From: Rhodospirillales bacterium
Lineage (GTDB): Bacteria > Pseudomonadota > Alphaproteobacteria > Rhodospirillales > JAPHRK01
DNA: 38,812 nucleotides
Assembly: GCA_026196105.1 (NCBI GenBank)
Contig: JAPHRK010000082.1
Location: 1-38,812 of the forward strand
Direction of reading: 5' to 3'
In this document: positions 1,541 to 30,859 of the stretch, piece by piece
How the letters are laid out: the number at the start of each line of letters is the position of its first letter
How positions within the stretch are numbered: the first letter of the stretch is position 1
Position numbers and translations under genes: made by a program
The notes under the pieces: model-generated
Told to the model about the DNA's origin: nothing
Databases searched by the model: none
The model's input: only the letters and a program-made list of their open reading frames with translations

Positions 1541-2268
1541 GAGAAAGCCTTTTTTAAATCAGCTTTTACTTTGCGAATTCGTCTACCCAAGGCTTCAATG
1601 ACCCGATCTGCGTCCTCATCGGTGATAAAACAATATGATGTTCTCCCAGGGAGGTCTAAAAACCTGCAAACCCAATTAGTTAAAGCCCCTGTATCGCTAA
1701 TCATCACATCGCCGAGCTTGTGGAGTATCTCCCATTGGGCTTCCATGACACGCGCTCTGGGAAGCTCAATTAGCCCAGATGTAGAAGCATAAGCAGACCA
1801 ATCGACACCACCTTCTCGCGTGGCCCATTTCTTTAAAGCCTCAATCACTTTATGAGATTCACTAGGGGTCATAAAGTTGATGGCATCAACTTTGACCTGA
1901 CGCTTAACAAAGGTGTCCAGTGCTTGTTCTGAGGGATCGGAAATAATGCCCAAATGATAAAGAGATAACCATAAGGCTCTAGCTTTCATTTGAGTTGGCC
2001 CATCAGCAAGCTTTTTACGCCCAGCCCGTTTGGGCGGCGCTTTCTTGGGTTTGAACCCGAGTTCTTTAAAATGAGTGATCAGATCGCTAAGTTGGGCATT
2101 GCTGAATTTCTTCAGACTGTCTTTACCAAAATTGGTTGTCAAAATATCCCGATAAGTTTCCTCATCTAACCCTAGTTCCTTTTTGGCAATATTGATCTTG
2201 GCATAAAGAGGTTTGCGGAAAGGGTTTACAGGCTTTTTTGCGGCTTGTTTTTTGACTGCTAAAGGCAT
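1537..2268 (-). CDS. gemA: GemA-like early regulatory protein (Mu gp16 family)
   Basis: A 243-residue protein. Its N-terminal half carries the GemA/gp16 (DUF1018) signature: a basic start, KINIAKKELGLDEETYRDIL near residues 24-43, then KKFSNAQLSDLITHFKELGFK. The middle holds a KMKARALWLSLYHLG-type helix and a second conserved region around FVKRQVKVDAINFM, typical of family members. In Mu, GemA modulates host gene expression and DNA supercoiling; here the role is carried over by homology. The gene overlaps the methyltransferase-like gene upstream by 10 nt and the small unknown downstream by 4 nt, so translation is probably coupled. Confidence 0.85.
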   Translation of the reverse strand: MPLAVKKQAAKKPVNPFRKPLYAKINIAKKELGLDEETYRDILTTNFGKDSLKKFSNAQLSDLITHFKELGFKPKKAPPKRAGRKKLADGPTQMKARALWLSLYHLGIISDPSEQALDTFVKRQVKVDAINFMTPSESHKVIEALKKWATREGGVDWSAYASTSGLIELPRARVMEAQWEILHKLGDVMISDTGALTNWVCRFLDLPGRTSYCFITDEDADRVIEALGRRIRKVKADLKKAFS

Positions 2269-2861
2269 TTGACATCATCCTTCCAAATATGGCCAACTTG
2301 GGTGCCTTGGGGGTTCCCACGTTCCCAAACAAACCAAGCATGGGCTCGTTTTTGACCATTCCCTCGCTCATCCAATGGGATAGTGCCAATCCAGCAATCG
2401 GCCCGATTTCCACAAATGTAGACTCGGTTTGGAGGTGTGCTTTCAAAGAAGGGGCGACGGGTAAGGCTTTCCCACCATTCTAGGCGTTGGAAGCAAAGAA
2501 CTTTTCGAGCGCCATCATCAAAAGATTTTTGGATGAATTCGGTAGCTAAAGAAAATGGGGGATTATAAAAATCTGTAAAATCATACCCCGTTGAAGGCTT
2601 GGCTAAGGTCAGAAAATTTAAACCAATTTGACTACTCGTATATCCCCAATCATATAAATCAGATGATTCAACATCATACCCAGCCCGTAGCGCTGCAATA
2701 GAAATTACTCCAGAACCGCAGCAAGGGTCTCTAACCACTTTGGTTAACAGCTCACGGCGTAAAATCGCCCAAGGTGCCCAAGCTGGAGTTTCCCAAAACT
2801 CAGCTTTTTTTGCGAGTTTTATCAGTTCTGGCTTAGTGTCTGTTTCAGCAAACAAACTCAT
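2259..2861 (-). CDS. Phage DNA N6-adenine methyltransferase-like protein
   Basis: A 200-residue protein with a class I SAM-methyltransferase core. Motif I is DPCCGSG at residues 45-51 and the amino-methyltransferase catalytic motif IV is NPPF at 100-103. The order (SAM motif before NPPF) and the short length match small phage Dam-like enzymes without a separate target-recognition domain. The likely substrate is adenine in phage DNA, protecting it from restriction or tuning transposition, but the site cannot be read from the sequence. The start at 2861 overlaps the upstream gene by 4 nt. A phage Mu genome carries the Mom modification gene late; this enzyme may serve a similar protective end, which is inference. 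Confidence 0.75.
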   Translation of the reverse strand: MSLFAETDTKPELIKLAKKAEFWETPAWAPWAILRRELLTKVVRDPCCGSGVISIAALRAGYDVESSDLYDWGYTSSQIGLNFLTLAKPSTGYDFTDFYNPPFSLATEFIQKSFDDGARKVLCFQRLEWWESLTRRPFFESTPPNRVYICGNRADCWIGTIPLDERGNGQKRAHAWFVWERGNPQGTQVGHIWKDDVKCL

Positions 2862-3139
2862 ACCTTCAGCTCCGGGTGTGTGGTGTTGTGGCTGTTGACG
2901 ATGGTGGCGATCTGCTTGGGGCTCATTTGGCTAGAGCAATATTCCAGGGCCAGCTTCAAAGCTTCTTCCGGGTCGGCGTCTTCCATATATTCAGACTTAA
3001 GCACCATGGCGGTAACGGCCTTAATATCTGCAGAAATTCTTTCTCTAACCTCAGGGGTCATTGCGCTTTTTCTAACGTTGAAAAAGAGGTGAAGGTCGAG
3101 AGCGGCGGCGACTGGATCAATAGGTTGCTGGCTTGCCAT
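2858..3139 (-). CDS. Small phage protein of unknown function
   Basis: A 93-residue protein starting at an ATG preceded by a strong AAGGAG eight to nine bases upstream, one of the clearest ribosome sites in the operon. The sequence is alpha-helical and acidic in the middle (MEDADPEEALKLALEYCSS). It contains no membrane segment or known motif. It overlaps the methyltransferase-like gene by 4 nt. Function unknown. Confidence 0.65.
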   Translation of the reverse strand: MASQQPIDPVAAALDLHLFFNVRKSAMTPEVRERISADIKAVTAMVLKSEYMEDADPEEALKLALEYCSSQMSPKQIATIVNSHNTTHPELKV

Positions 3140-3152
3140 GGGGTGATCTCCT

Positions 3153-3356
3153 TTAAGCGGATGGTCGGTTAATGGCGTTGATTTTCATCTTTTCATCAGT
3201 TTTGATAACGATGGGTTTCCCGTCCTTTTTTCCGACTTGATAGTTATGAGATTTAGCTACACTCAAAGCCCCTTTGGTATGTCGGGCTAGAACGTAAATG
3301 CTCCCTACACCTTTCACTCCAATGAGAAACACTTTTGAAGGTTTCTTCTTACTCAT
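3153..3356 (-). CDS. Small basic phage protein of unknown function
   Basis: I chose ATG 3356, which overlaps the gam stop codon (TGATG) and has AGAGG about seven bases upstream, over a TTG one codon earlier. The 67-residue product is lysine-rich. Its N-terminal half (VFLIGVKGVGSIYVLARHT) looks like two beta strands and the rest is charged. No family recognised. Confidence 0.6.
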   Translation of the reverse strand: MSKKKPSKVFLIGVKGVGSIYVLARHTKGALSVAKSHNYQVGKKDGKPIVIKTDEKMKINAINRPSA

Positions 3357-5805: not shown

Positions 5806-6486
5806 TTAAGCCCCCTTTAGATGATCAGCTGTGACAGCTTGTCCATTGCGCTTGCCGATGTTTTCTGCTTTGGCAATGCTTTTGATAATGTTGCGAATTT
5901 TACCTTTGGAATTTTCAAAAATAATCACACAGGCATCATCGGTAATATCAACTTCGGCAAGTTCGGATGCACAAAGCCGGACATCTTCTAAGGTGAGTTT
6001 TGTAAATTCTGCCACCGAAGAAACTCGGGTTTCAAATTGCGCCAAGGCTTGAAGTTTGCTCCAAACCCATTCCCGCCCTAAAGCAATGACTGGCACCTCT
6101 GTGTAGTCGGTTATGTCACGGACAGTCTCAAGGGTTTCGATATGGCGGATACCATTCTCAACCTCATCCAAAATTATTGTTTTTGGATTTTGTATCAGCC
6201 TCTGGCAAACCTGTTCAAATAATACCTGACAAGAGTTGCCCGGAGCATTTTCTCCCAAGGACTTTGCTAAGTCAGTTAACAGCCATCTAGGGGTGCAAGC
6301 GGCCTTTAATCGTACAGTGACACTAGGGTTTTTTAACCCCCACCAAACACCCGCCCTGGTTTTTCCAAGTCCAGCGTCTCCCACCGCCATCATCCAGCAA
6401 GCTTCTGGAGCTGCGTTGTTCCCAAGAGCCGTATAAGCATTGAGAAATCTTTTAACATTTGACGTTTGAACAAATTTGCGCTTCAT
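5806..6486 (-). CDS. B: MuB-like AAA+ ATPase, target-DNA activator
   Basis: A 226-residue AAA+ ATPase placed directly after the transposase gene, as in Mu. Walker A is GDAGLGKT at residues 36-43, and Walker B is TIILDEVE with Asp107-Glu108. Later sensor-like segments follow (VPVIALGREWVW). In Mu, MuB binds target DNA as an ATP-dependent filament, delivers it to MuA and provides target immunity. This protein is shorter than Mu B (312 residues) and lacks an obvious N-terminal helix-turn-helix extension. Its start is 57 nt from the end of the transposase gene. Confidence 0.85.
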   Translation of the reverse strand: MKRKFVQTSNVKRFLNAYTALGNNAAPEACWMMAVGDAGLGKTRAGVWWGLKNPSVTVRLKAACTPRWLLTDLAKSLGENAPGNSCQVLFEQVCQRLIQNPKTIILDEVENGIRHIETLETVRDITDYTEVPVIALGREWVWSKLQALAQFETRVSSVAEFTKLTLEDVRLCASELAEVDITDDACVIIFENSKGKIRNIIKSIAKAENIGKRNGQAVTADHLKGA

Positions 6487-6543
6487 TTAAAACCTCATTA
6501 AAAAGCGTTTAAAGCCATCAAGCGTTAGGTGCCCTGCCAGGAG

Positions 6544-8700
6544 CTACGCTAGGTGGCTTTCTTCGTTAATCTCGTCTTCGATACCCAACAGAAGCCGGAT
6601 CGAAGGATTTTCTAATAATTCTGCCGTATATTTTTTGTCGCTATCTGTAGCGATGTTTGGGTTATCCATGACCCATTGGACAAATTCTGCATCGTTGCTA
6701 AAATGTGGACGTTCTGCGCTATTAGCTGCGATGGGAAACTTGGTCACATTACTTGCCTCATCTTCTTCATTTAACTTTTGGAACATGGCATCCGCAGCGG
6801 CCTCTTGTTCTTCTGTTAAATCGCTAAAGATGACTGGGCCAGAGTTTTTCTTTTTCCGTTTTGTTGTTGGTTTGTCAGTGGTGTTAAAGACCTGTTTAAC
6901 CACTTTAGCTTCAGGGTTTACGCTTTCTGTAGCAGTCGGCATCATCTCTGCAACTTCGCCGATCTCCATCTTGATCAAGGCTTTGGCTGCTTCTTTTTGC
7001 GCCTTCATCCAGCGACGACGATTGCGACCATGTTCTTGAGCAGCTTCAACGCTGTTAAAGCCTACAGCATGGATACAATCAGCAAATCCAAGGTATGAAT
7101 TATCAAGCTTATAAACATGAATGCCGCTGTGAAGGTCTTGAGGGTCAAACCGGACAACCAGTTTTTCTCCATGGTGGTTGCTCATAAATTCACCCCAGAA
7201 GCGATTTCCTAAAAGTTTCAATGCCCCATCTTGACGACTGGCTCGGATACCTTCTGCAGCCATCAACCAGAGCCGTTGTTGCTCAGGCAGGAGCTTGGTG
7301 ATTTTTGAAACTTTGTATGACTCTTCAAAAGCTTGATCGATAGAGCGGCCTTGGCAAACTTTTGAACGTCGCCCAAGACGTGAATTGTGTTCCTGAATGC
7401 CGTATTCAACAACCTCAATAAACTTATCTAAGGGGATGGCTTTAGAACCGTAATTTTCGGGTTTATTAAGAGGGTTATTACCGACCCAAGCTCCTGCAAA
7501 CCGAGGGTCTTTTGCAATAGCATCACAGAAATCACGAAACCCACGTTCAATAGGTTTTGATTGCCCTGAATAAGGCGTCGTCCAATGGACCTCGACACCT
7601 AAAGTGACAAGAATACCTGTTGGATCATCGTCTTTAATTTTATATCTGAAACGGTTAGGCACACCACCTGTCAGCCATTTATTAGCAGCTGCACGGGTGT
7701 TATCGATGGTTAAGCCTTCAGGGAGACCATAAGTCTCAATCATGTCGCCAATGGTTAACCGAAAAGCTTCTTTGTTTTCGCTTTTATCAAACCGCCAGGA
7801 CAGATACTTAGCGGAATAAACATCTTGTATTGCCATCATGCAGACACGGCCTATTTCACCGTCAGGCCACTTAACTGCCACATCCCATTTATGACCATCG
7901 CAGTTGACTTCCTGCAAGGCATGGAAACAGGTCTTGTCTCGTTCTTGCGGTGGGAACATCCCTTTAAGAGCTTGAACACCATACCGTCTCAGTTCTTGTA
8001 CAGTGGCAGGTATTTCCCGGTCCATGCGACGCTTTAGAGTGCGCTCAGGAGGAATAGTCCAACCTTGCTGTTCACCAATAGCCACTGTGTCACGATAGCA
8101 AGCTGTAAAAGATTTTCTTTCAGCTCTGAGGTAATTGGCTTTTAGAGCTTCCCAAGCATCTGGGCTACATTCAACAGTTTGTTGGCGCCCGGTATGGTGG
8201 GGAATGAGGTAAGGGAGCCAATCGGCACGGTCTTTGCCTTCAACAAGCTTAAACCAATTAAATATGGAAGATTTTCCAACCTTAAATTCTAGTGCCGCAT
8301 GAATAACTGCTGAGTTCTTTCTCATCCCGGCTTTTTCCATGGCGAGAACAGCTTCTAAGGCTTGCAATCGTTCACCAGCTTTTTTCTTTTTCTTGTCATT
8401 GAGCTGCTCATAATATCGCCAAGCTTCAGAACGGTTTAATTCAGCTTTTGAGGCTTTGATGGGTTCTACATTTTTGGAGGCAGCGTTTAAGGAAATTTGC
8501 GCCTGGGCAGATGCTGGGAACAATGAATAGTGATATTTCCATCCTTCCTTGGTTTTGACTGCAAGAGGGTTGTTGAAACGGTCTTTGGCAGTTCGCCAAT
8601 TTTCCGTGCGAGCCTTTTTAGTTATTCCTTGAACGCTTCCAGGAAGGTTTGGAATTTTAGCAGTAATCATTTCGGAGGCGGTAAACCATTCACCATTCAT
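6544..8700 (-). CDS. A: MuA-like DDE transposase
   Basis: A 718-residue transposase. Residues 1-70 form the Mu-type winged DNA-binding domain (GEWFTASEMI...NLPGSVQGITKKA...WKYHYSLFP) that in Mu binds the internal enhancer. Residues 90-240 fit the end-binding subdomains. The catalytic RNase H-like core has Asp268 (NCDGH), Asp333 (TIDNTRAA) and Glu385 (KPIERGFRD), nearly the spacing of Mu A (269, 336, 392). A beta-barrel and a basic C-terminal region follow; the last part should contact MuB and ClpX in the Mu model. It catalyses strand transfer for integration and replicative transposition. It overlaps the upstream gene by 4 nt and appears intact. Confidence 0.95.
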   Translation of the reverse strand: MNGEWFTASEMITAKIPNLPGSVQGITKKARTENWRTAKDRFNNPLAVKTKEGWKYHYSLFPASAQAQISLNAASKNVEPIKASKAELNRSEAWRYYEQLNDKKKKKAGERLQALEAVLAMEKAGMRKNSAVIHAALEFKVGKSSIFNWFKLVEGKDRADWLPYLIPHHTGRQQTVECSPDAWEALKANYLRAERKSFTACYRDTVAIGEQQGWTIPPERTLKRRMDREIPATVQELRRYGVQALKGMFPPQERDKTCFHALQEVNCDGHKWDVAVKWPDGEIGRVCMMAIQDVYSAKYLSWRFDKSENKEAFRLTIGDMIETYGLPEGLTIDNTRAAANKWLTGGVPNRFRYKIKDDDPTGILVTLGVEVHWTTPYSGQSKPIERGFRDFCDAIAKDPRFAGAWVGNNPLNKPENYGSKAIPLDKFIEVVEYGIQEHNSRLGRRSKVCQGRSIDQAFEESYKVSKITKLLPEQQRLWLMAAEGIRASRQDGALKLLGNRFWGEFMSNHHGEKLVVRFDPQDLHSGIHVYKLDNSYLGFADCIHAVGFNSVEAAQEHGRNRRRWMKAQKEAAKALIKMEIGEVAEMMPTATESVNPEAKVVKQVFNTTDKPTTKRKKKNSGPVIFSDLTEEQEAAADAMFQKLNEEDEASNVTKFPIAANSAERPHFSNDAEFVQWVMDNPNIATDSDKKYTAELLENPSIRLLLGIEDEINEESHLA

Positions 8701-9179
8701 TTGCGGCGACCCTTTCTCAGAGCGCTAAGATCGCTCCGCATTTCTTCAATTTTTTCTGCAAGGATTGCTTCTTCAACTGCACACTCAAATCGCTTGGGAA
8801 TAACCGCTAAACCAACTTCAGCTGCCATTAAACTCAGCAATCGATAATCGTCGGTTGCGTACATCAGGGCTAAGGCTCTAACCACGCTTATTTTATGGGT
8901 CTCACTGGACTCTGAGGAGTAACGGTCAAGGATGTCTTTAGAAACATCTTCGCCTAGATAAGCCGCCATTTCAGTAGCAACTTCTTTACGATCTAAAGGC
9001 TGTTTTTCACGTTTTTTAGTATCACTTAGTGTCTTTGAAACTGCTTTACTAACTTTTGATCCCAGATTTGCAGCCCGAACATCTTCTTCTTTAAAGTGCG
9101 CTACTTTTGGAACTTTTGGCGTCCATGATAGTAGGTCAAGAGTTTTGTTGTCGTGCCTGGCTTTTCCTTTGGCCCCCAT
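8697..9179 (-). CDS. Phage protein of unknown function preceding the transposase gene
   Basis: A 160-residue hydrophilic protein. The N-terminal third is basic and probably disordered (MGAKGKARHDNKTLDLLSW). A helical part follows, containing EVATEMAAYLGEDVSKDIL, then an Ala/Leu-rich helix (SVVRALALMYATDDYRLLSL) and a basic end (LRKGRRK). It lies 6 nt from the ParB-like gene and overlaps the transposase gene by 4 nt, so it is probably co-translated with transposition functions. No family recognised. Confidence 0.65.
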   Translation of the reverse strand: MGAKGKARHDNKTLDLLSWTPKVPKVAHFKEEDVRAANLGSKVSKAVSKTLSDTKKREKQPLDRKEVATEMAAYLGEDVSKDILDRYSSESSETHKISVVRALALMYATDDYRLLSLMAAEVGLAVIPKRFECAVEEAILAEKIEEMRSDLSALRKGRRK

Positions 9180-9185
9180 AATTAC

Positions 9186-10055
9186 TTACTCCTCAGCCAG
9201 TTGAGGCCACTCATGTTTTATAGCCCCATCTTTGATTAGAAATTGAATAAACTGCTCTTTGGTTCCAGCATTTGCACGGCTCCAGGAATCCACCAATTTC
9301 TCATAGATTTTTTCCTCAGGTGTCTTGATGCGTTCCACTTTGCCATCAATCACCTTCACCGCCGCTGCCACCGATGGGGCCGGATTATCATTGGCAAATA
9401 CCATGTCGAGAACTTGGGATTGCTTTTCAGGTCCATGTTGGGCGAGATCAAGCAGGTTTTTTTGTTTGAGAGCAAACTCAGTTCCAGCAATCCTGGCCTG
9501 AGTCTCAGGGGAAAGGTTTTTAGCGATCATGACAGATCGGCGTATGGAGCGTTCATTCAAACCTGTTTTATTCGCCGCATCCTGGCTAAAGGACAAAATG
9601 TCCGTTAGCTGGCTTTTTCCTCCAGTATGTTGGTTTCCTTTGTTCCCGCCCCTCTTTGTCTCAGGGTGCAAAGCTTCATAAATTTCTTTCCGCTTCAGAA
9701 GGGATACGGCTTTATCAAGAGGGTTCAATTCATGGCGAAAAAGGTTCTCATCTATCTTTATGAGCAAACGCGCATTTCTTGCCCGTTCATTGTTACCTAC
9801 TAGTGTCGTCTTTTGAATAGCTGGGATATCAAAGCGGTTTAAAAGACAATAGGCATCAGCCCTGTGATCTCCAGCTAAGAGCCACCGTTTTCCATCTTTT
9901 CTTTTCTGAGAGACTATAATTGGGGTGTTCAAATCCCCTTCAGGGCCACATTGATCAATGATTGAAGCTGCTATGGACTTTACCCAATCTGGGTCAATAG
10001 CCCTCAAACGTTCTGATCGATCAAGCTCAGACAAAGAAACTCGAATTATACCCAT
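9186..10055 (-). CDS. ParB-like nuclease/CTPase-fold protein
   Basis: About 289 residues from ATG 10055. That start is preferred to GTG 10061 because AGGTGG lies seven bases before the ATG and touches the GTG. The N-terminal 110 residues match the ParB/Srx fold. A promoter-proximal strand (IIRVSLSELDRSERLRAID) is followed by GDHRADAY at about residue 62, the position of the GERRxRA box of true ParB proteins, then ENLFRHELNPLDKAVSL. A middle HTH-like region (LNERSIRRSVMIAKNLSPE) follows. GDHR instead of GERR means classical CTP-dependent sliding cannot be assumed. The gene lies between ner and A, where Mu has none. It may bind phage DNA to help transposition or control. Confidence 0.75.
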   Translation of the reverse strand: MGIIRVSLSELDRSERLRAIDPDWVKSIAASIIDQCGPEGDLNTPIIVSQKRKDGKRWLLAGDHRADAYCLLNRFDIPAIQKTTLVGNNERARNARLLIKIDENLFRHELNPLDKAVSLLKRKEIYEALHPETKRGGNKGNQHTGGKSQLTDILSFSQDAANKTGLNERSIRRSVMIAKNLSPETQARIAGTEFALKQKNLLDLAQHGPEKQSQVLDMVFANDNPAPSVAAAVKVIDGKVERIKTPEEKIYEKLVDSWSRANAGTKEQFIQFLIKDGAIKHEWPQLAEE

Positions 10056-10057
10056 GT

Positions 10058-10345
10058 TCACGCCACCTTGCTTTTTTCACAGTGACGAGAGCCTTTTGAC
10101 GCGATAGTATTCTGACCGATGGAACGAGTCCCATCAGGATTGTAACGAGCTGGCCATATCCTGAAGGGGTTGATGTTTAAGTGGTCTGCTATCGCTTTCT
10201 CTCCAGCAGGAGAGACATGATAAAGGATCGCCATTCGACAGGCGCTTTCAGATAATCCATTCTGGAGAGCTAGGTCGGTTAAGGAAATTCCGGTTTTGCG
10301 GACTTTCGCTTTGATGTCTTCGGGGTGCCAACCTTTTCGCGCCAT
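10058..10345 (-). CDS. ner: Ner/Nlp-like early-transcription repressor
   Basis: A 95-residue DNA-binding protein close to Mu Ner throughout. It has the N-terminal GWHPEDIKAKVRKTGISL helix, the helix-turn-helix LTDLALQNGLSESACRMAI, and the C-terminal block GEKAIADHLNINPFRIWPARY that in Mu reads GEQIIANAL...IWPSRY. Ner turns down both the early and the repressor promoter after infection starts. It is the first gene of the leftward early operon, with AAAGGAA before its ATG, and its stop codon lies just before the chosen start of the ParB-like gene. A 20-residue C-terminal extension beyond Mu Ner is present. Confidence 0.9.
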   Translation of the reverse strand: MARKGWHPEDIKAKVRKTGISLTDLALQNGLSESACRMAILYHVSPAGEKAIADHLNINPFRIWPARYNPDGTRSIGQNTIASKGSRHCEKSKVA

Positions 10346-10361
10346 CTTTTATTCCTTTTTT

Positions 10362-10384
10362 AACCGGGTGCAATCCGGTTTTTT
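10362..10384. terminator. Inverted repeat with T-run in the ner leader
   Basis: AACCGG (10362-10367), a 7-nt loop, then CCGGTT (10375-10380) and further Ts. On the plus strand this has the form of a short intrinsic terminator. On the minus strand it would be a hairpin in the ner mRNA leader just ahead of its ribosome site. A role in blocking rightward read-through or in controlling ner translation is inference. Confidence 0.4.
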
Positions 10385-10412
10385 AAGGGTGTTCAAATTT
10401 ACGTTCGTAAAG

Positions 10413-10441
10413 AACATAGTCGCATATATGCGTGGATACAA
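10413..10441 (-). promoter_or_regulatory. Predicted early promoter of the ner-A-B operon
   Basis: On the minus strand a -35 box TTGTAT (10441-10436) and a -10 box TATGTT (10418-10413) are separated by exactly 17 bases. Transcription would begin near 10406, giving a leader of about 60 nt before ner. The spacer contains a perfect palindrome, so a bound repressor would block the promoter. Confidence 0.55.
10421..10432. promoter_or_regulatory. Candidate operator: 12-bp perfect palindrome
   Basis: CGCATATATGCG is a perfect dyad inside the 17-bp spacer of the predicted early promoter. A related half-matching sequence, TGCGTATATAC, lies at 10481-10491 over the -10 box of the repressor promoter. Shared sequence at both promoters is what one expects for a phage repressor or Ner. 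Which protein binds is not shown. A second dyad, GTTC-5-GAAC (10403-10415), overlaps the early -10 region. Confidence 0.5.
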
Positions 10442-10463
10442 GAATAAATTCTAGTTTCATGCA

Positions 10464-10492
10464 TTTTTAACTATTGTTTTTGCGTATATACT
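10464..10492 (+). promoter_or_regulatory. Predicted promoter of repressor gene c
   Basis: TATACT at 10487-10492 is a good -10 box about 22 bases before the c start codon. The -35 region is AT-rich and weak (TTTTTA, 17 bases upstream), consistent with a regulated promoter. The -10 box overlaps GTATATAC (10484-10491), related to the palindrome in the opposing early promoter, so both divergent promoters could be controlled by the same protein. Confidence 0.45.
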
Positions 10493-10513
10493 GAATAGAG
10501 TGTTGTTGTTATT

Positions 10514-11044
10514 ATGAAAACACGGGATGAAACTGCGCATTTCGTCGATGAAACCTCAGTTTCAGGTATTGCACCTGGATTTGAAACTAGACTAAGTGCG
10601 GTTTGCTCAGATGTCGGCACTAAGAAAAAAGCGGCAGAAGTGGCGGGTATCTCTGAGGACTCTTTGCACCGCTATATTCGGGGTGAGACCAAGGTCTCTC
10701 TTGATCCTATGGCAAAGTTATGTGCTTACACCGGGAAGACTTTGGATTGGCTTGTAACAGGTAAAGCTCCCACACTCTTGGGAGAAAACTTGGATGGGAG
10801 CATTCTTCCACCCGACCCCAAGACCAATCAGATAGACCCTGACCTCTTCGCCAAAGTCGTGGGCCAGGTTGAGCAATTTCAAATAAAGAACAAGATTGAT
10901 GTCGACCCATTAAAAAAGGGAGAATTAATCCTAGCAGTCTATTTTTTGACAGCAAATACAATGCATTATGGTGGTGATTATACTGAAACCCTTGCGAAAA
11001 TAGAAGCTGACATGGGCAGGATAATCCGCCTTGCTACCAACTAA
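10514..11044 (+). CDS. c: Prophage repressor (Mu c-like position), XRE family
   Basis: A 176-residue protein divergent from ner, the position of the lysogeny repressor c in Mu. Residues 22-82 form an XRE helix-turn-helix (KKKAAEVAGISEDSLHRYIRGE, then LDPMAKLCAYTGKTLDWLVTG). Residues 90-115 look like a flexible linker and the C-terminal 60 residues are helical, probably for oligomerisation. No Ser-Lys peptidase dyad is evident, so LexA-type self-cleavage is unlikely. The family differs from Mu c (MerR-like winged fold) and is closer to repressors seen in other transposable phages. It should silence the early operon through the dyads at 10403-10491. Confidence 0.8.
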   Translation: MKTRDETAHFVDETSVSGIAPGFETRLSAVCSDVGTKKKAAEVAGISEDSLHRYIRGETKVSLDPMAKLCAYTGKTLDWLVTGKAPTLLGENLDGSILPPDPKTNQIDPDLFAKVVGQVEQFQIKNKIDVDPLKKGELILAVYFLTANTMHYGGDYTETLAKIEADMGRIIRLATN

Positions 11045-11057
11045 TCACAACATCTAG

Positions 11058-11075
11058 TACATACTTTGGTATGTA
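11058..11075. promoter_or_regulatory. Inverted repeat between c and the cargo promoter
   Basis: TACATAC, a TTTG loop, and GTATGTA form a perfect 7-bp dyad starting 13 bases after the c stop codon. It ends directly against the predicted cargo -35 box. It could be an operator for the cargo promoter or a weak end-of-gene hairpin. No long T-run follows, which favours the operator reading. Confidence 0.4.
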
Positions 11076-11104
11076 TTTACAACTGTGCGCGAATACCTTA
11101 AAAG
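11076..11104 (+). promoter_or_regulatory. Predicted promoter of the cargo cassette
   Basis: TTTACA (11076-11081, five of six consensus bases) and TAAAAG (11099-11104, four of six) are 17 bases apart. Transcription would start near 11111, right at the edge of the GC-rich structured segment. This gives the cargo genes their own promoter, independent of the early operon. Confidence 0.4.
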
Positions 11105-11110
11105 TAGTGG

Positions 11111-11219
11111 GGGAGGATAGGGGCTACTACCCTCCGTTCCGGACAAAACGGCTGTCCTTATCGTGATTCCACGCCCACTCTCCCCGCGGGGAGTCCGGTG
11201 TTGAGGTAGGGGGTAGCCA
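11111..11219 (+). ncRNA. Candidate structured leader RNA of the cargo cassette
   Basis: A GC-rich island among AT-rich flanks with nested complementary segments. GGCTAC (11123-11128) pairs with GTAGCC (11213-11218). TACC (11129-11132) pairs with GGTA (11205-11208). CCGGAC (11140-11145) pairs with GTCCGG (11193-11198). Inner hairpins are CGTG-ATTC-CACG (11162-11173) and the palindrome CTCCCCGCGGGGAG (11180-11193). The outer strand contains the purine-rich GAGGTAGGGGG (11203-11213), the likely ribosome site of the gene starting at 11220. The fold would therefore hide the start signal. It matches no RNA family I recognise. The strand is inferred from the downstream gene. Confidence 0.45.
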
Positions 11220-11522
11220 GTGTTTAGTAATGAACAAAAAGCATATTCTTCAGTTAAAGAAATACTAGAAGACACAAAGTCAAAAAAAATCATAAGTATT
11301 AATCAAGTCCTAATAGTTTTAAGTATTGTATTATTAATCGCTATTGGTGCTTTTTCTTTTCAAATCGTGTCTTGTGGAAAAAAACATGGGGAAGAACATG
11401 TTAAAAATCAAGTAACTGCTTATGAACAAAAGATGAATTCTTATAGGAAGCCTAAAAATGACAAAGAAAGAAAGAATCTGGACCGCAGTAGGACTTTGTA
11501 TTCTTTGTTTAGTGGTAATTAA
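11220..11522 (+). CDS. Small single-pass membrane protein, prophage cargo
   Basis: A 100-residue protein from GTG 11220. Residues 1-27 are charged and cytoplasmic-like. Residues 28-50 form one strong membrane helix (VLIVLSIVLLIAIGAFSF). The rest is highly charged and Lys-rich (DKERKNLDRSRTL). It is the most AT-rich coding stretch of the prophage end. It lies outside c, between the repressor and the phage terminus, where accessory (moron) genes are often carried. The last 65 nt overlap the next gene in another frame. A role in host-surface change or superinfection exclusion is plausible from position and topology only. Confidence 0.55.
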   Translation: MFSNEQKAYSSVKEILEDTKSKKIISINQVLIVLSIVLLIAIGAFSFQIVSCGKKHGEEHVKNQVTAYEQKMNSYRKPKNDKERKNLDRSRTLYSLFSGN

Positions 11523-11835
11523 AGTTCTTCCGACCGGCTCCCCCCAGCCAGAGCCTACTGCATTGTCCCTTGAGACAGCCGCCTGGCTTACGGATTACTA
11601 TGATAAAACCCCAGTTGGTGGTGGCTGGCATGTTTCCAGCGTCACAGCTAAAGGCGAAGCCGCAATCATCAACCTTTCCGTCCCTAAAGGTATTGAATTT
11701 TATGATATCGATTTTGGGGGGATCGTTTGCCCCAACAAACTAGAGGACGTATGGAAAAAAGTGGACGACGGTAAATCTATCGAACTAAAAATCTCAGAAA
11801 GCGGCGGTAGTAAATCCCAAAAAGTGAAATGCTAG
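11458..11835 (+). CDS. Membrane-anchored protein of unknown function, prophage cargo
   Basis: A 125-residue protein: a short basic start, one membrane helix at residues 8-25 (WTAVGLCILCLVVIKVL), then a soluble domain, presumably periplasmic, with alternating strands (GWHVSSVTAKGEAAIINLSV). Two cysteines in the domain, one in IVCPNK and one as the last residue, could form a disulfide. The ATG lies inside the upstream gene, which is in a different frame, with a 65-nt overlap. Base use is more balanced than in the upstream gene, hinting at separate origin. No family recognised. It ends 180 nt before the phage terminus. Confidence 0.6.
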   Translation: MTKKERIWTAVGLCILCLVVIKVLPTGSPQPEPTALSLETAAWLTDYYDKTPVGGGWHVSSVTAKGEAAIINLSVPKGIEFYDIDFGGIVCPNKLEDVWKKVDDGKSIELKISESGGSKSQKVKC

Positions 11836-11839
11836 AAAA

Positions 11840-12015
11840 TTACTCCAAAATCAAATGACGAAAACTTCTTTTGCCCTATGCAGTCCAAAAACAAAATAAA
11901 AGCGCAAATTTTTTTTGAGCTACCTTTAAAACCCCTTTAAAACTGCGGATGTCCCGTTATATCCTCCAATATCCCGGATAGTCCCGGTTACTCCAATATC
12001 TAATGACGGGTTACA
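11840..12015 (-). repeat. Phage left end with L1/L2/L3-like transposase sites
   Basis: Counting inward from 12015, whose phage strand begins TGTAAC, three related motifs occur on the plus strand. They are CTCCAATATCTAATGACG (11991-12008), a weaker copy beginning GTCCAAAAACAAAA (11883-11900), and CTCCAAAATCAAATGACG (11843-11860). Their distances from the end are about 8-25, 116-133 and 156-173 bp, close to Mu L1, L2 and L3 (6-27, 111-132, 151-172). A further partial copy, CTCCAATATC, lies at 11964-11973 within a 25/27-bp direct repeat (11947-11973 and 11976-12000). A 5-bp target duplication would be ACCAT (12016-12020), but the other end is not visible. Confidence 0.7.
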
Positions 12016-12465
12016 ACCATCCTGCAGTTCGTGAGAAAGCGACTATAGGAGCTTTCGAAAGACGTTGTGACAAGCAACAGCCCGAGAGTTTCTCCAAGGA
12101 TAAAAAGTAACCCCAAGGCTGGTTTTTACTATTCCGTCTTCGACAATGGTTTCCGTTGTATGGACTTTCTGATTTTCTCAACGAAACTGGGATGGGAGCC
12201 TGGCTTTAATAATAAAAAGAAAAATCTTGTTAGGTCGTGCTTGGAAGGCGATAGCCATAGCAAAGTGTCGATGATCCAAAGCTTGCTTAGTGCTGAGGAC
12301 TGTTTATTTTAGCACATGTTCTCCAAAAGTATTGATGTCAATTCACGGGGCTATGCAATAGGTGGACAGAATAATGTTACAGAACGAATATCAATTGACG
12401 CAACCAATTATCAAGCCCATGTCTTTTGAAGAGACATAGATAAAATTCAACTCCGGAACCAAGCC
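12016..12465. other. Host junction and 450-nt spacer, no secure gene
   Basis: Chromosomal DNA next to the prophage end. A GTG-started frame of 81 codons (12067-12312) and an ATG frame of 37 codons (12316-12429) are open. Neither has a recognisable family or a good ribosome site, and the first could be a remnant of a gene interrupted by the insertion. The promoter and leader of the cyclase gene at 12466 should lie in the right part, but no clear -35/-10 pair stands out. Confidence 0.4.
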
Positions 12466-13734
12466 ATGGACATCAAAAATATTGATCCGCAAGAGCTCTT
12501 GAATTCACTCCAGGCGGGGGTTGTTGTGCATAGCCCAACTACCGAGATATTGTATGCAAATCCAATGTCCTTGGAAATCCTTCGTTTAACTGAAAATCAA
12601 GTGATAGGAAAAGATGCTTTAGATCCAAATTGGCGCATGCTGGATAACCATCATAAACCCTTAACCACAGAGCAATATCCTGTTAACCGCGTTTTAAGAG
12701 AAAAGCGAGCCATTAATAACGTGGAAATTGGGGTGTGTGATAGTTCGAGTGAGGAGGTGACATGGGTTTTGTGTAATGCTTATCCTGAGTGGACCGAGGA
12801 CAAAACAATATCTCAAGTGGTTGTCACTTTTATTGATGTTACCCATGATCATATCGACATTCCGTACAAAGATATCGTTGATTTATCAAATGACGTTATC
12901 GTTGTGACAAAGGCGACCCCCATCACGGACCCGGGACCTGAAATTGTATACGTGAATAACGCTTTTACCGACCTAACGGGATATACCCCAGAAGAGGCCA
13001 TCGGAAAAGATCCAAGATTTTTGCAAGGAGACGATACGAGTGTGGAAGTCAGAGATCGAATAAGGGAAAGTTTAGCCGCTGAAGAACCAACACGTGAAGA
13101 AATATTAAATTATTCCAAACGTGGGCAACCCTACTGGCTTGACATGAATATTGTGCCTTTACGAAATGAGTTTGGAGAAGTGACATATTTCGCAGCTATT
13201 GAAAGAGATGTAACGGAAGCCAAGAAACTCGAACAAGAACTAAAAGACCTCGCACTAACTGACCCCTTAACGGGTTTGTATAATCGCAGGGGGTTTGATG
13301 AATTGGGGCGAAACAGCCTCTCAACAGCTAAGCGCAACAAACAACCCGTGTGCATTGCAATGCTTGATATTGATTACTTTAAAAAGATCAATGATGAATA
13401 CGGTCATAATGTTGGAGATACTGTTCTGGAAGACTTGGCTTTGTGCCTTAAAGGGCACTTTCGAGAGAATGATTTGATTGGTCGTTTGGGGGGAGAAGAG
13501 TTCGCTGTTATTCTCTATGGAACAGAAATAAAATCTGCATATAACAAGCTTGAAGAACTAAGAAAAGATATCGAGGCTAGATCTGTCAAAGGCCCAAAAG
13601 AGATCAAGTACACCGTGAGCATTGGTTTCTGCAAAGTTGTAGAGTATAAAAGGCTGAATGAGGCTCTGAAAAAATCCGACAAAGCCCTCTATAAAGCCAA
13701 AGATGCTGGCCGAAATCAAGTCGTTGAAATATAA
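12466..13734 (+). CDS. Diguanylate cyclase with PAS and LOV-like PAS domains
   Basis: A 422-residue cytosolic protein that should make cyclic di-GMP from GTP. Residues 8-128 are a PAS domain. Residues 138-253 are a second PAS domain closely resembling LOV photosensors (GKDPRFLQGDD at 180-190, then LNYSKRGQPYW and IERDVTEAKK). The flavin-bonding Cys of LOV proteins is Pro183 here. The GGDEF domain spans 262-420 with the active-site GGEEF at 342-346 and the inhibitory-site Arg333-x-x-Asp336. The intact I-site predicts product feedback inhibition. No membrane segment is present. It stands alone between the prophage junction and a gene of opposite direction. Confidence 0.9.
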   Translation: MDIKNIDPQELLNSLQAGVVVHSPTTEILYANPMSLEILRLTENQVIGKDALDPNWRMLDNHHKPLTTEQYPVNRVLREKRAINNVEIGVCDSSSEEVTWVLCNAYPEWTEDKTISQVVVTFIDVTHDHIDIPYKDIVDLSNDVIVVTKATPITDPGPEIVYVNNAFTDLTGYTPEEAIGKDPRFLQGDDTSVEVRDRIRESLAAEEPTREEILNYSKRGQPYWLDMNIVPLRNEFGEVTYFAAIERDVTEAKKLEQELKDLALTDPLTGLYNRRGFDELGRNSLSTAKRNKQPVCIAMLDIDYFKKINDEYGHNVGDTVLEDLALCLKGHFRENDLIGRLGGEEFAVILYGTEIKSAYNKLEELRKDIEARSVKGPKEIKYTVSIGFCKVVEYKRLNEALKKSDKALYKAKDAGRNQVVEI

Positions 13735-13952
13735 AGAATTTTTCATCATTAGTCATGGCTAACGGTTGCCAATAACTGTAGCGTTTATTGTACCGAATAT
13801 TTACTCAAGTACTGTTCGCCTTCAAGCAGAATGAATGTGGGCCGAATATAACTTACGGTCTGTCCACCCGTCCTCCATTACCAAATTTTTAAAGGCTCTC
13901 GCGTTAATCGCACGAAGGTCTTTTTTATTAATGACCTCTTATAGATCTGGCC

Positions 13953-14711
13953 TCAAAACTTGCCGTTATCGTTCTTCCACCCGCTCCGGGGGGAGATGTT
14001 TTCGGTTGTGTCCCAATGTTCTACCAGCATGCCATCGGTGACCCGAAAGAGGTTGTAGAATGCACAATGGTTGCCGTCAAAGTTACCCTCGCTGACGCAA
14101 AGCACGAAATTACCTTCGGCTAAAACACGATGAATTTGTTGGTAGTCAATCTGCCTTGAACCATTGTCCTTGGCTTCCAATGCGAGATATAGCCCGGACA
14201 AGTCGTCCGTAAGTCGCGGATTATGTTCGACGTAGGTGTCCTTATCAACATAATCCGTCAGCCGGTCGAGTTGCCCATCAATAAGCACCATTTTAACAAA
14301 GGATCGAACGATGGCGCGGTTTGTTTCCGTCGATTCATGGTCAACCGCTTCTGTTGCTCCATCCACCATGCTATGGCCTGATTGATTGGGTCCCAGCCTT
14401 GCCTGGATATTGTCACAGTGCTCCACGGCTCGACCGTCTTCAAAGCGGAACACCTCAAAGCCAATATTCCTGCGCGAAAAATCGTACTCGGTATGTGCAA
14501 AGACGAAATCACCATCCTCGAAGGCACGGACGATGTTTACCCGAGGAGAGGTTTTTGAAAGTCGCTGAAAAAGGACAGCTAACCCCTCGCTCCCTTCGTG
14601 AGTTTGTGGGTTGTGCTGTATATATTTGTCTTCATTTACGATGGCAACTGGTTCCGGATCGCCAGTTTCAATGCTCTTCAGCAATGCTTTGATTTGATCT
14701 TTTTTTGCCAA
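13953..14711 (-). CDS. Tandem SnoaL-like domain protein
   Basis: A 252-residue protein from a TTG start preceded by AAGGA at eight bases. It contains two copies of the SnoaL/NTF2-like cone fold, residues about 5-115 and 130-245. Each copy has the family marks: YIQHNPQ in the first and YVEHNPR in the second, and VFRFEDGRAVEHCDNIQ versus LFRVTDGMLVEHWDTTEN near each end. Such proteins are usually predicted cyclases, isomerases or hydrolases, or stress-related proteins of unknown substrate, and function cannot be narrowed. Most relatives have one domain, so this looks like an internal duplication. The gene is isolated and convergent with the cyclase gene, and looks less AT-rich than its flanks. 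Confidence 0.8.
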   Translation of the reverse strand: MAKKDQIKALLKSIETGDPEPVAIVNEDKYIQHNPQTHEGSEGLAVLFQRLSKTSPRVNIVRAFEDGDFVFAHTEYDFSRRNIGFEVFRFEDGRAVEHCDNIQARLGPNQSGHSMVDGATEAVDHESTETNRAIVRSFVKMVLIDGQLDRLTDYVDKDTYVEHNPRLTDDLSGLYLALEAKDNGSRQIDYQQIHRVLAEGNFVLCVSEGNFDGNHCAFYNLFRVTDGMLVEHWDTTENISPRSGWKNDNGKF

Positions 14712-14948
14712 GGCTGTTATCCTTAACAGTCAAAATTGTATTTCTCACACGCCTATAAACCATTGACGATAAGGGATGTGTAGGTAGATCGCAATTATGA
14801 AATTATAGAACACAATATTTATTATTTTTCTACCGCTTCTCCTCTCATAAGCGCGTTACCACATGCCTTTATTATCGTTTATTGTACAAGACATGCATCA
14901 TATGGTCGAGCTGGATGGCGGCTATATCACTGAAGTGCTCAGAAATAG

Positions 14949-15296
14949 CTATTGATGTAGATTGGCTTCACGCAGGACGTCTTCGTTTTCCACTCGGCGT
15001 TTATGGGCGTTGGCAAGTTTCCCCAAATTCTTAATGAATGAGAAAAAACCGATGACCATGAATAACCCGGCCCCGGTTACAAAAGTGAGTGGTGTCTTGG
15101 AGAAGGTCTGTTCCCCCGTAAACCTGCCAATCGCGACCCCAGGGATCTGACTGATTATAAACAGGCAGCAGATTAAGCTAAGTAGCAATGCCATTAAGCT
15201 GTTTGCTCGGTATGTTTTTATTTGTTTATTTGTGCCCTCCTTTTCTTTGAAAGCGGATAGAAGGGTTATTTGCGTATCGTGCGAGGTTCTGACCAT
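14949..15296 (-). CDS. Small two-helix membrane protein
   Basis: A 115-residue protein with a charged N-terminus and two predicted membrane helices (about 31-52, NSLMALLLSLICCLFIISQI, and 69-90, PLTFVTGAGLFMVIGFFSFI). A basic C-terminal tail (KRRVENEDVLREANLHQ) follows. AGGTG lies seven bases before the ATG. Cytoplasmic N- and C-termini are likely. I recognise no family. The 237-nt spacer on its downstream side (14712-14948) shows no further gene. Confidence 0.6.
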   Translation of the reverse strand: MVRTSHDTQITLLSAFKEKEGTNKQIKTYRANSLMALLLSLICCLFIISQIPGVAIGRFTGEQTFSKTPLTFVTGAGLFMVIGFFSFIKNLGKLANAHKRRVENEDVLREANLHQ

Positions 15297-29165: not shown

Positions 29166-30605
29166 GTGTGGACTAAGAAACTTCGCATAGTTCTTGCGCT
29201 CACAGCTCTTCTTGTTGCAGGTTTTGCGACAACGAGTGTGGTTAGCTATATCGTTGCCCATGATTCTCTCTCTGAACAAATCGCCGAGACGACGCTTCCT
29301 CTGACAAGTGACAATATTTATTCTGAAATTCAGCAAGACTTGCTGCGACCAATCTTTATCTCATCATTGATGGCGCAAGACACTTTCGTGCGAGATTGGG
29401 TCATGTCTGGAGAGAAAGATGTTGCCTCGATAACTCGTTATCTGAGTGAAATTCAAAAACAATATGGAACAATTACCAGTTTTTTTGTTTCTGAGGAAAC
29501 CCGTAAATATTATCATTCTTCTGGAGTTCTTAAAACGATTAAAGAAGAGGATCCTCTAGATAAATGGTACTTCAAAGTCAAGAATATGCGAGACGACTAT
29601 GAGGTTAATGTAGATATAGATACGGCCGATAAGCAATCCATGGTCATCTTTATTAATTACCGAGTTTATGACTACTCTGGTCGTTATATTGGTGCTACTG
29701 GGGTCGGACTTGCCGTTGATGCTGTTAAAAAACTAATTGAAACCTACCAGCAACGGTATGGTCGCAAAGTATATTTCACGGATCGACAAGGAGTTGTCGC
29801 GCTTAATAGTACTGGGTACACGGGGGAAAAAAACATACATGAGCGTCAGGGGATCAAAAAAATTGCGACGCAAATCCTTTCTTCTCCCAGCGGTTCATAC
29901 ACATACCAGAATAAGGGTCATACTGTTTATGTTAACAGTCGTTTAGTACCTGAATTTGATTGGTACCTTCTTGTTGAACAACAAGATGATCCAGGGGAAA
30001 CTCGTATTCTCAATACCTTGTTAAGCAATCTATTGATTAGCTTGTTTATTACAGGAATTGTTTTGCTGTTGGCTAATTTGACGATCAGCAGCTATCAAAA
30101 TCGCCTGGAGGAAATGGCGACGACAGATCAATTAACTGGTATCGCAAATCGCCATATGTTTGATATGCTTTTTGGTCATGCCCTTAAGTCTGCAAAACGG
30201 CATGAAGGCCCAATCTCTGCAATCATTCTCGATATTGATCATTTCAAATACGTTAATGATACCTACGGGCATGCCGCTGGTGACGCGGTTATTCAAAGGG
30301 TGGTAGGGGCAGCAAAAGAACAAATCAGAGAGTCTTATACCATCTGCCGCTGGGGGGGGGAAGAGTTCCTTCTTTTGCTGCCTGATTGTAATTTAGATCA
30401 TGCTCTTAAATTGGCCGAAAATATTCGAGACGCAATTTTAAAGCTCGTTGTAAATTTTGAAGATAAAGATATTTCTGTTACGGCAAGTCTAGGGGTTACC
30501 CTATATAGAGATGAGGAAAGTCAGATTGAATTGTTAAAGAGGGCGGATAGTGCTCTCTATGAAGCTAAGAAATCAGGCCGCAATAGAGTTGAATTCAAAA
30601 TCTAA
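29166..30605 (+). CDS. Membrane-bound diguanylate cyclase with periplasmic sensor
   Basis: A 479-residue protein from GTG 29166. Membrane helix one is at about 8-30, followed by a 250-residue periplasmic domain resembling double-Cache sensors (SFFVSEETRKYYHSSG, WYFKVKN, FINYRVYDYSGRYIGATGVGL). Membrane helix two is at about 287-307. The GGDEF domain follows with GGEEF at 397-401 (CRWGGEEF). The inhibitory site reads RESY (388-391) instead of RxxD, so Asp is missing at Tyr391 and feedback inhibition is probably lost or altered. It likely makes cyclic di-GMP in response to an external small molecule. Confidence 0.9.
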   Translation: MWTKKLRIVLALTALLVAGFATTSVVSYIVAHDSLSEQIAETTLPLTSDNIYSEIQQDLLRPIFISSLMAQDTFVRDWVMSGEKDVASITRYLSEIQKQYGTITSFFVSEETRKYYHSSGVLKTIKEEDPLDKWYFKVKNMRDDYEVNVDIDTADKQSMVIFINYRVYDYSGRYIGATGVGLAVDAVKKLIETYQQRYGRKVYFTDRQGVVALNSTGYTGEKNIHERQGIKKIATQILSSPSGSYTYQNKGHTVYVNSRLVPEFDWYLLVEQQDDPGETRILNTLLSNLLISLFITGIVLLLANLTISSYQNRLEEMATTDQLTGIANRHMFDMLFGHALKSAKRHEGPISAIILDIDHFKYVNDTYGHAAGDAVIQRVVGAAKEQIRESYTICRWGGEEFLLLLPDCNLDHALKLAENIRDAILKLVVNFEDKDISVTASLGVTLYRDEESQIELLKRADSALYEAKKSGRNRVEFKI

Positions 30606-30859
30606 AAACTCACACCAGCCTATTTTCTATCTATAATATTATTTCTATTCTTCGTCAAAACCATAAATTACAAGATGTATAGTTGTTTGTTGTTTGTGCT
30701 TAGATATTATTTAGTGTAATTGCAGCCATTGTTATTTTCTATGTTGCAATTTAGAGAAATCTTATATTAGTATCCGGAAAAATTATAGTAAGCCCTAGCT
30801 GTTATCAAAGATGGCCTACGGGGGGGCGTTCTATTCATTTGAGCTCAGGAGCGTGGCTA

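Follow-up and report, generated by a model that had tools for sequence, protein, structure and literature searches.

Two overlapping membrane-protein genes as candidate cargo between the repressor and the left end of a Mu-like prophage in a Rhodospirillales bacterium

A pair of overlapping genes, P1 and P2, lies between the repressor gene c and the left end of a Mu-like prophage. The pair is cargo in a known kind of place, and consists of an orphan, P1, and a phage-borne member of an unnamed, envelope-type protein family, P2. The window, ie the whole 38,812-bp stretch of DNA that was analysed, is one complete contig (C39) of a genome in 82 contigs, and its first 12 kb are the left part of the prophage, which reads leftwards. 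The function that we tentatively favour for the pair is superinfection exclusion at the envelope of the lysogen.

The features of the left end are collected in Table 1. The prophage part holds transposition genes of the A and B type together with c and ner at the left end, as in Mu-like transposable prophages. The B-like ATPase matches a DNA transposition protein family of PHROGs (9.9e-40), and a ParB-like gene, Gam and GemA are also among the prophage genes. A DUF5131 protein (E = 1.2e-29) is encoded in the phage part at 65-949. The last bases of the left end, at 12015, resemble the TGTAAC.. start of a second element on contig C7 and the ..CGCTACA right ends. Two transposase-end-like sites lie next to it, of which the inner one begins 5 nt past the P2 stop codon, and other elements in the genome have similar sites at their ends. 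When up to three mismatches were allowed, the 21-bp pattern occurred at five places in the genome (the two listed here and three with 2-3 mismatches) and its reversed control at two, so that isolated places carry little weight alone. The ends were therefore assigned on context, ie the matching 5-bp flanks, and not on single pattern matches. Two of the three further places frame the C7 element and the third is the right end of the prophage, at position 3267 of contig C57, where it is followed by ATGGT. The related end sites and the 5-bp target duplication thus surround the cargo. Contigs C39 and C57 most likely hold opposite ends of one prophage, judged by these sequences, and the same ATGGT at both ends places the cassette inside it. 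The original prediction of cargo within a Mu-like prophage, in a moron-like place beside the repressor, agrees with these ends and with the composition described below.

Table 1. Features at the left end of the prophage (positions in the window)
Feature	Position	Strand or direction	Remarks
Transposase A	6544-8700	reads leftwards	Pfam DDE_2, 1e-56
ner	10058-10345	opposite to c	Pfam HTH_35, 6.5e-22
c, phage repressor	10514-11044	+	Pfam HTH_3, E = 4.2e-07; reads towards left end and cassette
Inverted repeat TACATAC-TTTG-GTATGTA	11058-11075		exact, 7-bp arms, 4-nt loop
Weak promoter-like match TTTACA-17-TAAAAG	11076-11104	+	9/12, poor -10
GC-rich untranslated segment (leader)	11105-11219	+	61.7% GC
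P1	11220-11522	+	100 aa, GTG start; single hydrophobic segment at about 24-50; predicted helical, C-terminal part basic
P2	11458-11835	+	125 aa, ATG start; N-terminal hydrophobic anchor and domain 33-125 with W57, C91-P92, C125
Inner transposase-end-like site (L3-like)	11840-11860		90% identical copy at 11988
Terminal transposase-end-like site (L1-like)	11988-12008		21-bp sequence repeated from 11840
Phage left end, last bases	12009-12015		TGTAACC.. in phage orientation
5-bp target duplication ACCAT	12016-12020		ATGGT in phage orientation; same ATGGT after right end on C57

The C7 element (6287-14968, 8.7 kb) is a second Mu-like element and an apparent remnant, with similar end sites, identical CTTGG flanks and weak A-like matches (best E = 8.4e-06). 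Two proteins are encoded at 1577-3171 beside the right end on C57, one resembling DNA methylases (N6_N4_Mtase, E = 2.5e-07), the other PLP enzymes (PALP, E = 4.2e-09). These genes are possibly DNA-modification cargo; in phage Mu, mom sits at about the same place. In the window itself, one 20-kb host stretch holds three reading frames (12466-13734, 29166-30605 and 30839-32401) whose translations look by eye like GGDEF (diguanylate cyclase) proteins.

The existence of two overlapping membrane-protein genes between c and the phage end, predicted originally from the letters, was upheld by the open reading frames, their hydrophobic segments and their codon usage. A single strongly hydrophobic segment is present in each protein, the 19-residue Kyte-Doolittle mean peaking at 2.76 in P1 and 2.36 in P2. 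For both genes the stated frame is the one favoured by codon usage among all six, and the score of P2 is near that of c (0.197 and 0.21 bits per codon, respectively). In PMC4378225, morons are defined as genes in an otherwise conserved phage frame that are absent from relatives, have their own promoter and terminator, and differ in composition from their neighbours. Absence from relatives was seen here: a phmmer search (E <= 10) with P1 or P2 found no homologue among the 9,678 ORFs in 85 loci of related phages, where the profile of the P2 family gave one weak match (E = 0.021), and the slot is variable between related phages. The composition is also unlike that of the neighbours, with 61.7% GC in the leader, 27.7% in P1 before the overlap and 47.9% in P2 past it, compared to 41-44% in the surrounding kilobases. 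With both frames open and no homologue in the 85 loci, the interval does not have the character of a decayed remnant of ordinary phage genes.

As to a promoter and a terminator, which were sought by sigma-70 consensus scans only, the predicted promoter is a weak 9/12 match that fails the last-T rule and was not listed by the promoter scan, and no terminator-like site was found by scan in 10000-13000, where shuffles average 2.8. The inverted repeat is present as described but is not beyond chance, since dinucleotide shuffles also gave arms of at least 7, in 18 of 300 cases for the 175-nt gap between c and P1 and in 53 of 200 for 11045-11835. Because of the weak promoter, the chance-level inverted repeat and the lack of terminator-like sites in these consensus scans, read-through from c is the simpler reading, and the claim that the cassette is independently controlled is not borne out.

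The segment ahead of P1 is indeed GC-rich; its GC content is reached by 40 overlapping 115-nt windows, ie 0.10% of those in the contig. A perfect palindrome of 14 nt lies in it at 11180, and a ribosome-binding-like stretch can be seen by eye ahead of P1. That it is also structured, as had been proposed, was not supported. The predicted fold of 11100-11225 had z = -0.06, with 92 of 200 shuffles folding equally well, and that of 11139-11222 had z = -0.76 (37 of 200 as good); a hand-picked 41-nt hairpin at 11165-11205 reached z = -2.04 (6 of 200). No Rfam family reached its gathering score anywhere in the window, and 11000-12100 gave three sub-threshold matches only (best E = 1.5). With no Rfam match and a fold not above shuffles, a structured RNA leader was rejected as a demonstrated element. 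A repeat family as the identity of 11045-11219 was ruled out by its single copy in the genome. Translational control by the leader is possible, as the ribosome-binding-like stretch is partly paired in the predicted fold.

Comparison with relatives suggests that the interval from c to the left end is an accessory slot and no oddity of this phage. The firm case of a variable slot, by alignment, is the pair of Sinorhizobium phages Aussie and StopSmel. They are 84% identical over 5.8 kb; their left 420 nt align, as does the sequence beside c, and the slot between the aligned parts is 2.4 kb with AriA- and AriB-like genes in Aussie, and 0.75 kb in StopSmel. The AriA-like protein also matches many other ATPase models. 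Annotated genes lie in the same slot of ThpS-P1 and RhkS-P1, and the partial record of PeaS-P1 has no gene in the 491 nt beyond its regulator gene. Phage Mu itself is not known to have comparable genes between c and the phage end. Ochrobactrum phage POA1180 (L021 2829-3495), a related Mu-like phage, has annotated chromate transport/resistance genes beyond its repressor, suggesting an accessory region there again.

A survey of the slot covered the best 80 of 536 confirmed IMG/VR loci, with their left boundaries unverified, and five named phages. An iterated profile identified the repressor gene in 61 of these 85 loci; in 37 loci the interval left of c was at least 400 nt long and could be judged. 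An ORF of at least 90 aa was present there in 35 of the 37 and an ORF running with c within 250 nt in 23, both being counts of mechanical ORFs without a shuffled control. Some of this cargo may be host DNA: the TonB receptor match at L070 490-1404 is probably host flank. Pfam searches of 10 slot cargo proteins gave that receptor, a recombinase in L047, and nothing for the other eight. PADLOC searches of 18 slot proteins, taken from 11 loci, gave matches in four loci; the matches in L039, L102 and L107 are possibly of a generic helicase, nuclease or cyclase kind. Neither P1 nor P2 matched any of the PADLOC-DB families (E <= 0.01), ie they were not assigned to a known anti-phage system. The comparison of the same interval in related phages, which the original prediction had proposed as a check, thus gave a variable slot in which several relatives carry genes, and P1 and P2 have no homologues in the 85 loci.

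The explanation that we prefer, held tentatively and at less than even odds, is that of a moron in the slot between c and the left end, acting at the inner membrane or in the periplasm of the lysogen, most likely in superinfection exclusion. Expression in lysogeny is likely from the position of the genes. P1 and P2 would be made most simply via read-through from the c transcript, as no terminator-like site was found between. Both would be inserted in the inner membrane, with the probably disulfide-stabilised domain of P2 in the periplasm. At the envelope they would most likely stop DNA entry or the receptor function of superinfecting phages, and P2 may mimic a partner of a host envelope protein family. 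Location, topology and precedent, not homology, make superinfection exclusion the first candidate.

The statement that the proteins match nothing was wrong for P2. On profile evidence P2 is a divergent member of an unnamed alphaproteobacterial family of anchored two-cysteine domains. It scored 52.8 bits against a family profile built without P2, whereas 4,000 shuffled versions of P2 gave no more than 11.2 and other sequences no more than 13.2; the rows of that profile were first chosen by similarity to P2 or to a P2-containing profile, which makes the test not fully independent. A profile from a class-level subset still scored P2 at 49.4 bits. P2 has the W, CP and C of the family: C91, P92 and C125 are invariant across 34 aligned rows, and W57 is common to the aligned members, the exceptions being truncated rows and one row without W. 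The 34 rows were obtained from 62 matches by excluding members truncated at contig ends or within the ORF, duplicates, and hits without a fetched locus; the family loci are among L002-L008, L028-L035 and L124-L160. The domain is inferred to be periplasmic, and the conserved cysteines suggest that it is probably stabilised by a disulfide.

The relatives of P2 emerged through whole-genome search and profiles. Members were found in 49 of 317 genomes of the host's order (E <= 1e-4) and in 8 of 385 genomes of a class sample (E <= 0.001), the host's own included in both counts, and only in the host's own among 398 genomes of a phylum-wide sample (E <= 1e-4). A further order sample of 297 genomes gave weak matches to P2, and all those with E under 0.01 came from one genus. 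No relatives of P2 were found in IMG/VR, in plasmids or in a direct scan of GTDB contigs, and the only match to phages was one to an ssRNA phage (E = 0.4). No Pfam family was over cut-off for the 34 members scanned, and NCBIfam gave no good match for eight members (best E = 0.016).

Among the members that these searches gave, P2 alone lies in a phage, the surroundings of the others having been viewed within about 1.5 kb. In that distance the chromosomal relatives that were viewed have no recognised phage genes and no neighbourhood common across families, and by eye they resemble ordinary chromosomal lipoproteins or membrane-anchored proteins. A second member occurs in the host genome as the C-terminal portion of a protein of 274 aa (C40:9301-9693; L028, L139), whose gene adjoins one resembling glutathione reductase by eye. 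L035 and L155 resemble the 274-aa protein in architecture. The setting of these relatives speaks for a general envelope role and not for exclusion. A moron that altered the host envelope (its stability, stress response or surface) to the benefit of the lysogen, with no exclusion of phages, would fit such relatives, the C40 member among them, and we consider it possible, if rather unlikely. The AriA- and AriB-like genes in the slot of Aussie, a phage with a defined left end, weigh against it, as they raise the prior for exclusion or defence. In a tree P2 lies on a long branch and is not the sister of the C40 paralogue, with the placement unsure owing to long branches, and recent capture of P2 from that paralogue was rejected on this basis. 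The profile matches suggest that P2 shares deep ancestry with the host envelope protein family.

The sharp GC mosaic of leader, P1 and P2, the weak promoter, and the failure to find a P1 relative or a phage relative of P2 are also what a transient passenger would leave, ie DNA inserted in a tolerant slot with little or no expression and no selected function. We regard this as improbable, since P2, although very divergent and on a long branch, retains the C, P and C that are invariant in its family. In addition, its frame is clean with codon usage like that of c, and the genes fill the slot to 5 nt short of the inner end site.

The fold of P2 was modelled with AlphaFold2 from seq­uences of seven members (mean pLDDT 73.8, pTM 0.61). 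Foldseek found nothing for the model at E <= 0.001. When it was compared to 294 chains with VIA-align, the top two ranks were 4ftf (AspS, Z = 6.5) and 6i2v (EpsS, 5.9), with 3npd (PA3611, 4.8) fourth and 5zdh_P (ETEC AspS, 3.9) fifth; the third was the unrelated RbfA, unrelated chains tie from that rank on, and the Z values are under those commonly reached by unrelated models. According to the AspS paper, no structure is closer to AspS than that of PA3611, and AspS has a conserved disulfide, Cys74-Cys111 (PMC3542185). Its cysteine spacing of 37 compares with 34 in P2, and an AspS/PA3611-like fold of P2 is a suggestive lead from the predicted model.

A true T2SS pilotin was rejected on several grounds. 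T2SSS_2 (PF16549) was absent from the Pfam families listed at E <= 10 for the 34 members, and the host genome has no T2SSS_2 match at E <= 1 and no GspD-model match at 1e-20. Full-length YghG was aligned to the family by hhalign with a probability of 4.7%; the mature part alone dropped to shuffle level, 114 of 200 shuffles equalling it against the family profile. GspD was over cut-off (E <= 1e-20) in none of the 49 family genomes, compared to 24 of 268 others (p = 0.034). By eye there is no lipobox in P2. Neither the sequence-profile match nor the lipoprotein partner of GspD expected of an AspS-type pilotin was found. Secretin-like matches under the GspD cut-off were present in 35 of the 49 family genomes by our own count of the list, and these genomes may have secretins other than GspD.

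A P2 with the AspS/PA3611 fold could instead act as a mimic, disturbing a secretin (a pilus or secretion pore) that phages use as their receptor. The four pilotin-related chains among the first five ranks, the similar cysteine spacing (PMC3542185) and the sub-cut-off secretin matches are consistent with such a mimic; the rank of RbfA, the ties and low Z values, the Foldseek result, the shuffle-level YghG comparison and the distribution of GspD, together with the host genome's lack of GspD and T2SSS_2 matches, make it very doubtful. Similarly speculative is the boldest combination of these elements. In it P2 would be the phage version of a periplasmic domain of the host order's own envelope, with an AspS/PA3611-like, disulfide-locked fold; with its partner P1 in the inner membrane it would hijack or block the family's host partner and so exclude phages, under leader-controlled translation, as a new class of exclusion.

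Relatives of P1 were sought in the host genome, the 85 phage loci, 50,697 phage records, IMG/VR (by 8-residue patterns), Pfam and PHROGs. The host genome gave only a chance-level match with stops, and there were none in the phage records or by pattern in IMG/VR. All Pfam matches were under cut-off, the best being Ninjurin (E = 0.0031), and the best PHROGs match was an Rz-like spanin (E = 0.0099, not significant). The single-sequence model of P1 had a pTM of 0.35, and the net charge is +1 ahead of the hydrophobic segment and +6 behind it, which leaves the orientation ambiguous. A lysis pair in the overlapping Rz/Rz1 arrangement, to which the overlapping membrane genes and the spanin match might point, was rejected as most improbable, since that match falls short of significance, no lipobox was seen in P2 by eye, and the genes run with the repressor between c and the phage end.

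The cassette offers a well-defined cargo unit for experiment, in a slot whose content differs among relatives and in one of them includes defence-like genes, and screening of the interval between c and the left end across Mu-like phages would be a cheap route to new exclusion and defence genes. The analysis also exposes a family of anchored two-cysteine domains, centred on one bacterial order, for which Pfam gave no family over cut-off (34 members). Compared with known systems, the predicted alpha/beta domain of P2 and its two similarly spaced cysteines recall the AspS/GspS-beta pilotins and PA3611, but P2 differs from the pilotins in having no detectable sequence relation, no lipobox by eye, and no GspD over cut-off in the family genomes. 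Aussie has cargo in the same slot of a Mu-like alphaproteobacterial phage; there it is a 2.4-kb AriA ATPase/AriB (PARIS)-like unit that reads towards c, whereas here two small membrane proteins run with c. The transposable, B3-like phage Fc02 has small overlapping genes beside its repressor (olg1/sie1, olg2 and gene 10), and Olg1 and ORF10 exclude other phages when expressed, according to PMC9936078. Small overlapping genes thus adjoin the repressor of a transposable phage in both cases. As described there, the Fc02 genes lie on the upstream side of the repressor, and Olg1, a soluble protein, has a DEDDh-exonuclease-like match; for these reasons Fc02 is, by analogy, a precedent for the place only. 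With the rest of the two-cysteine family P2 has in common the N-terminal anchor and the pattern of W, CP and C; it is set apart by being phage-borne, by its long branch, and by an identity of at most 24% in full-length alignments.
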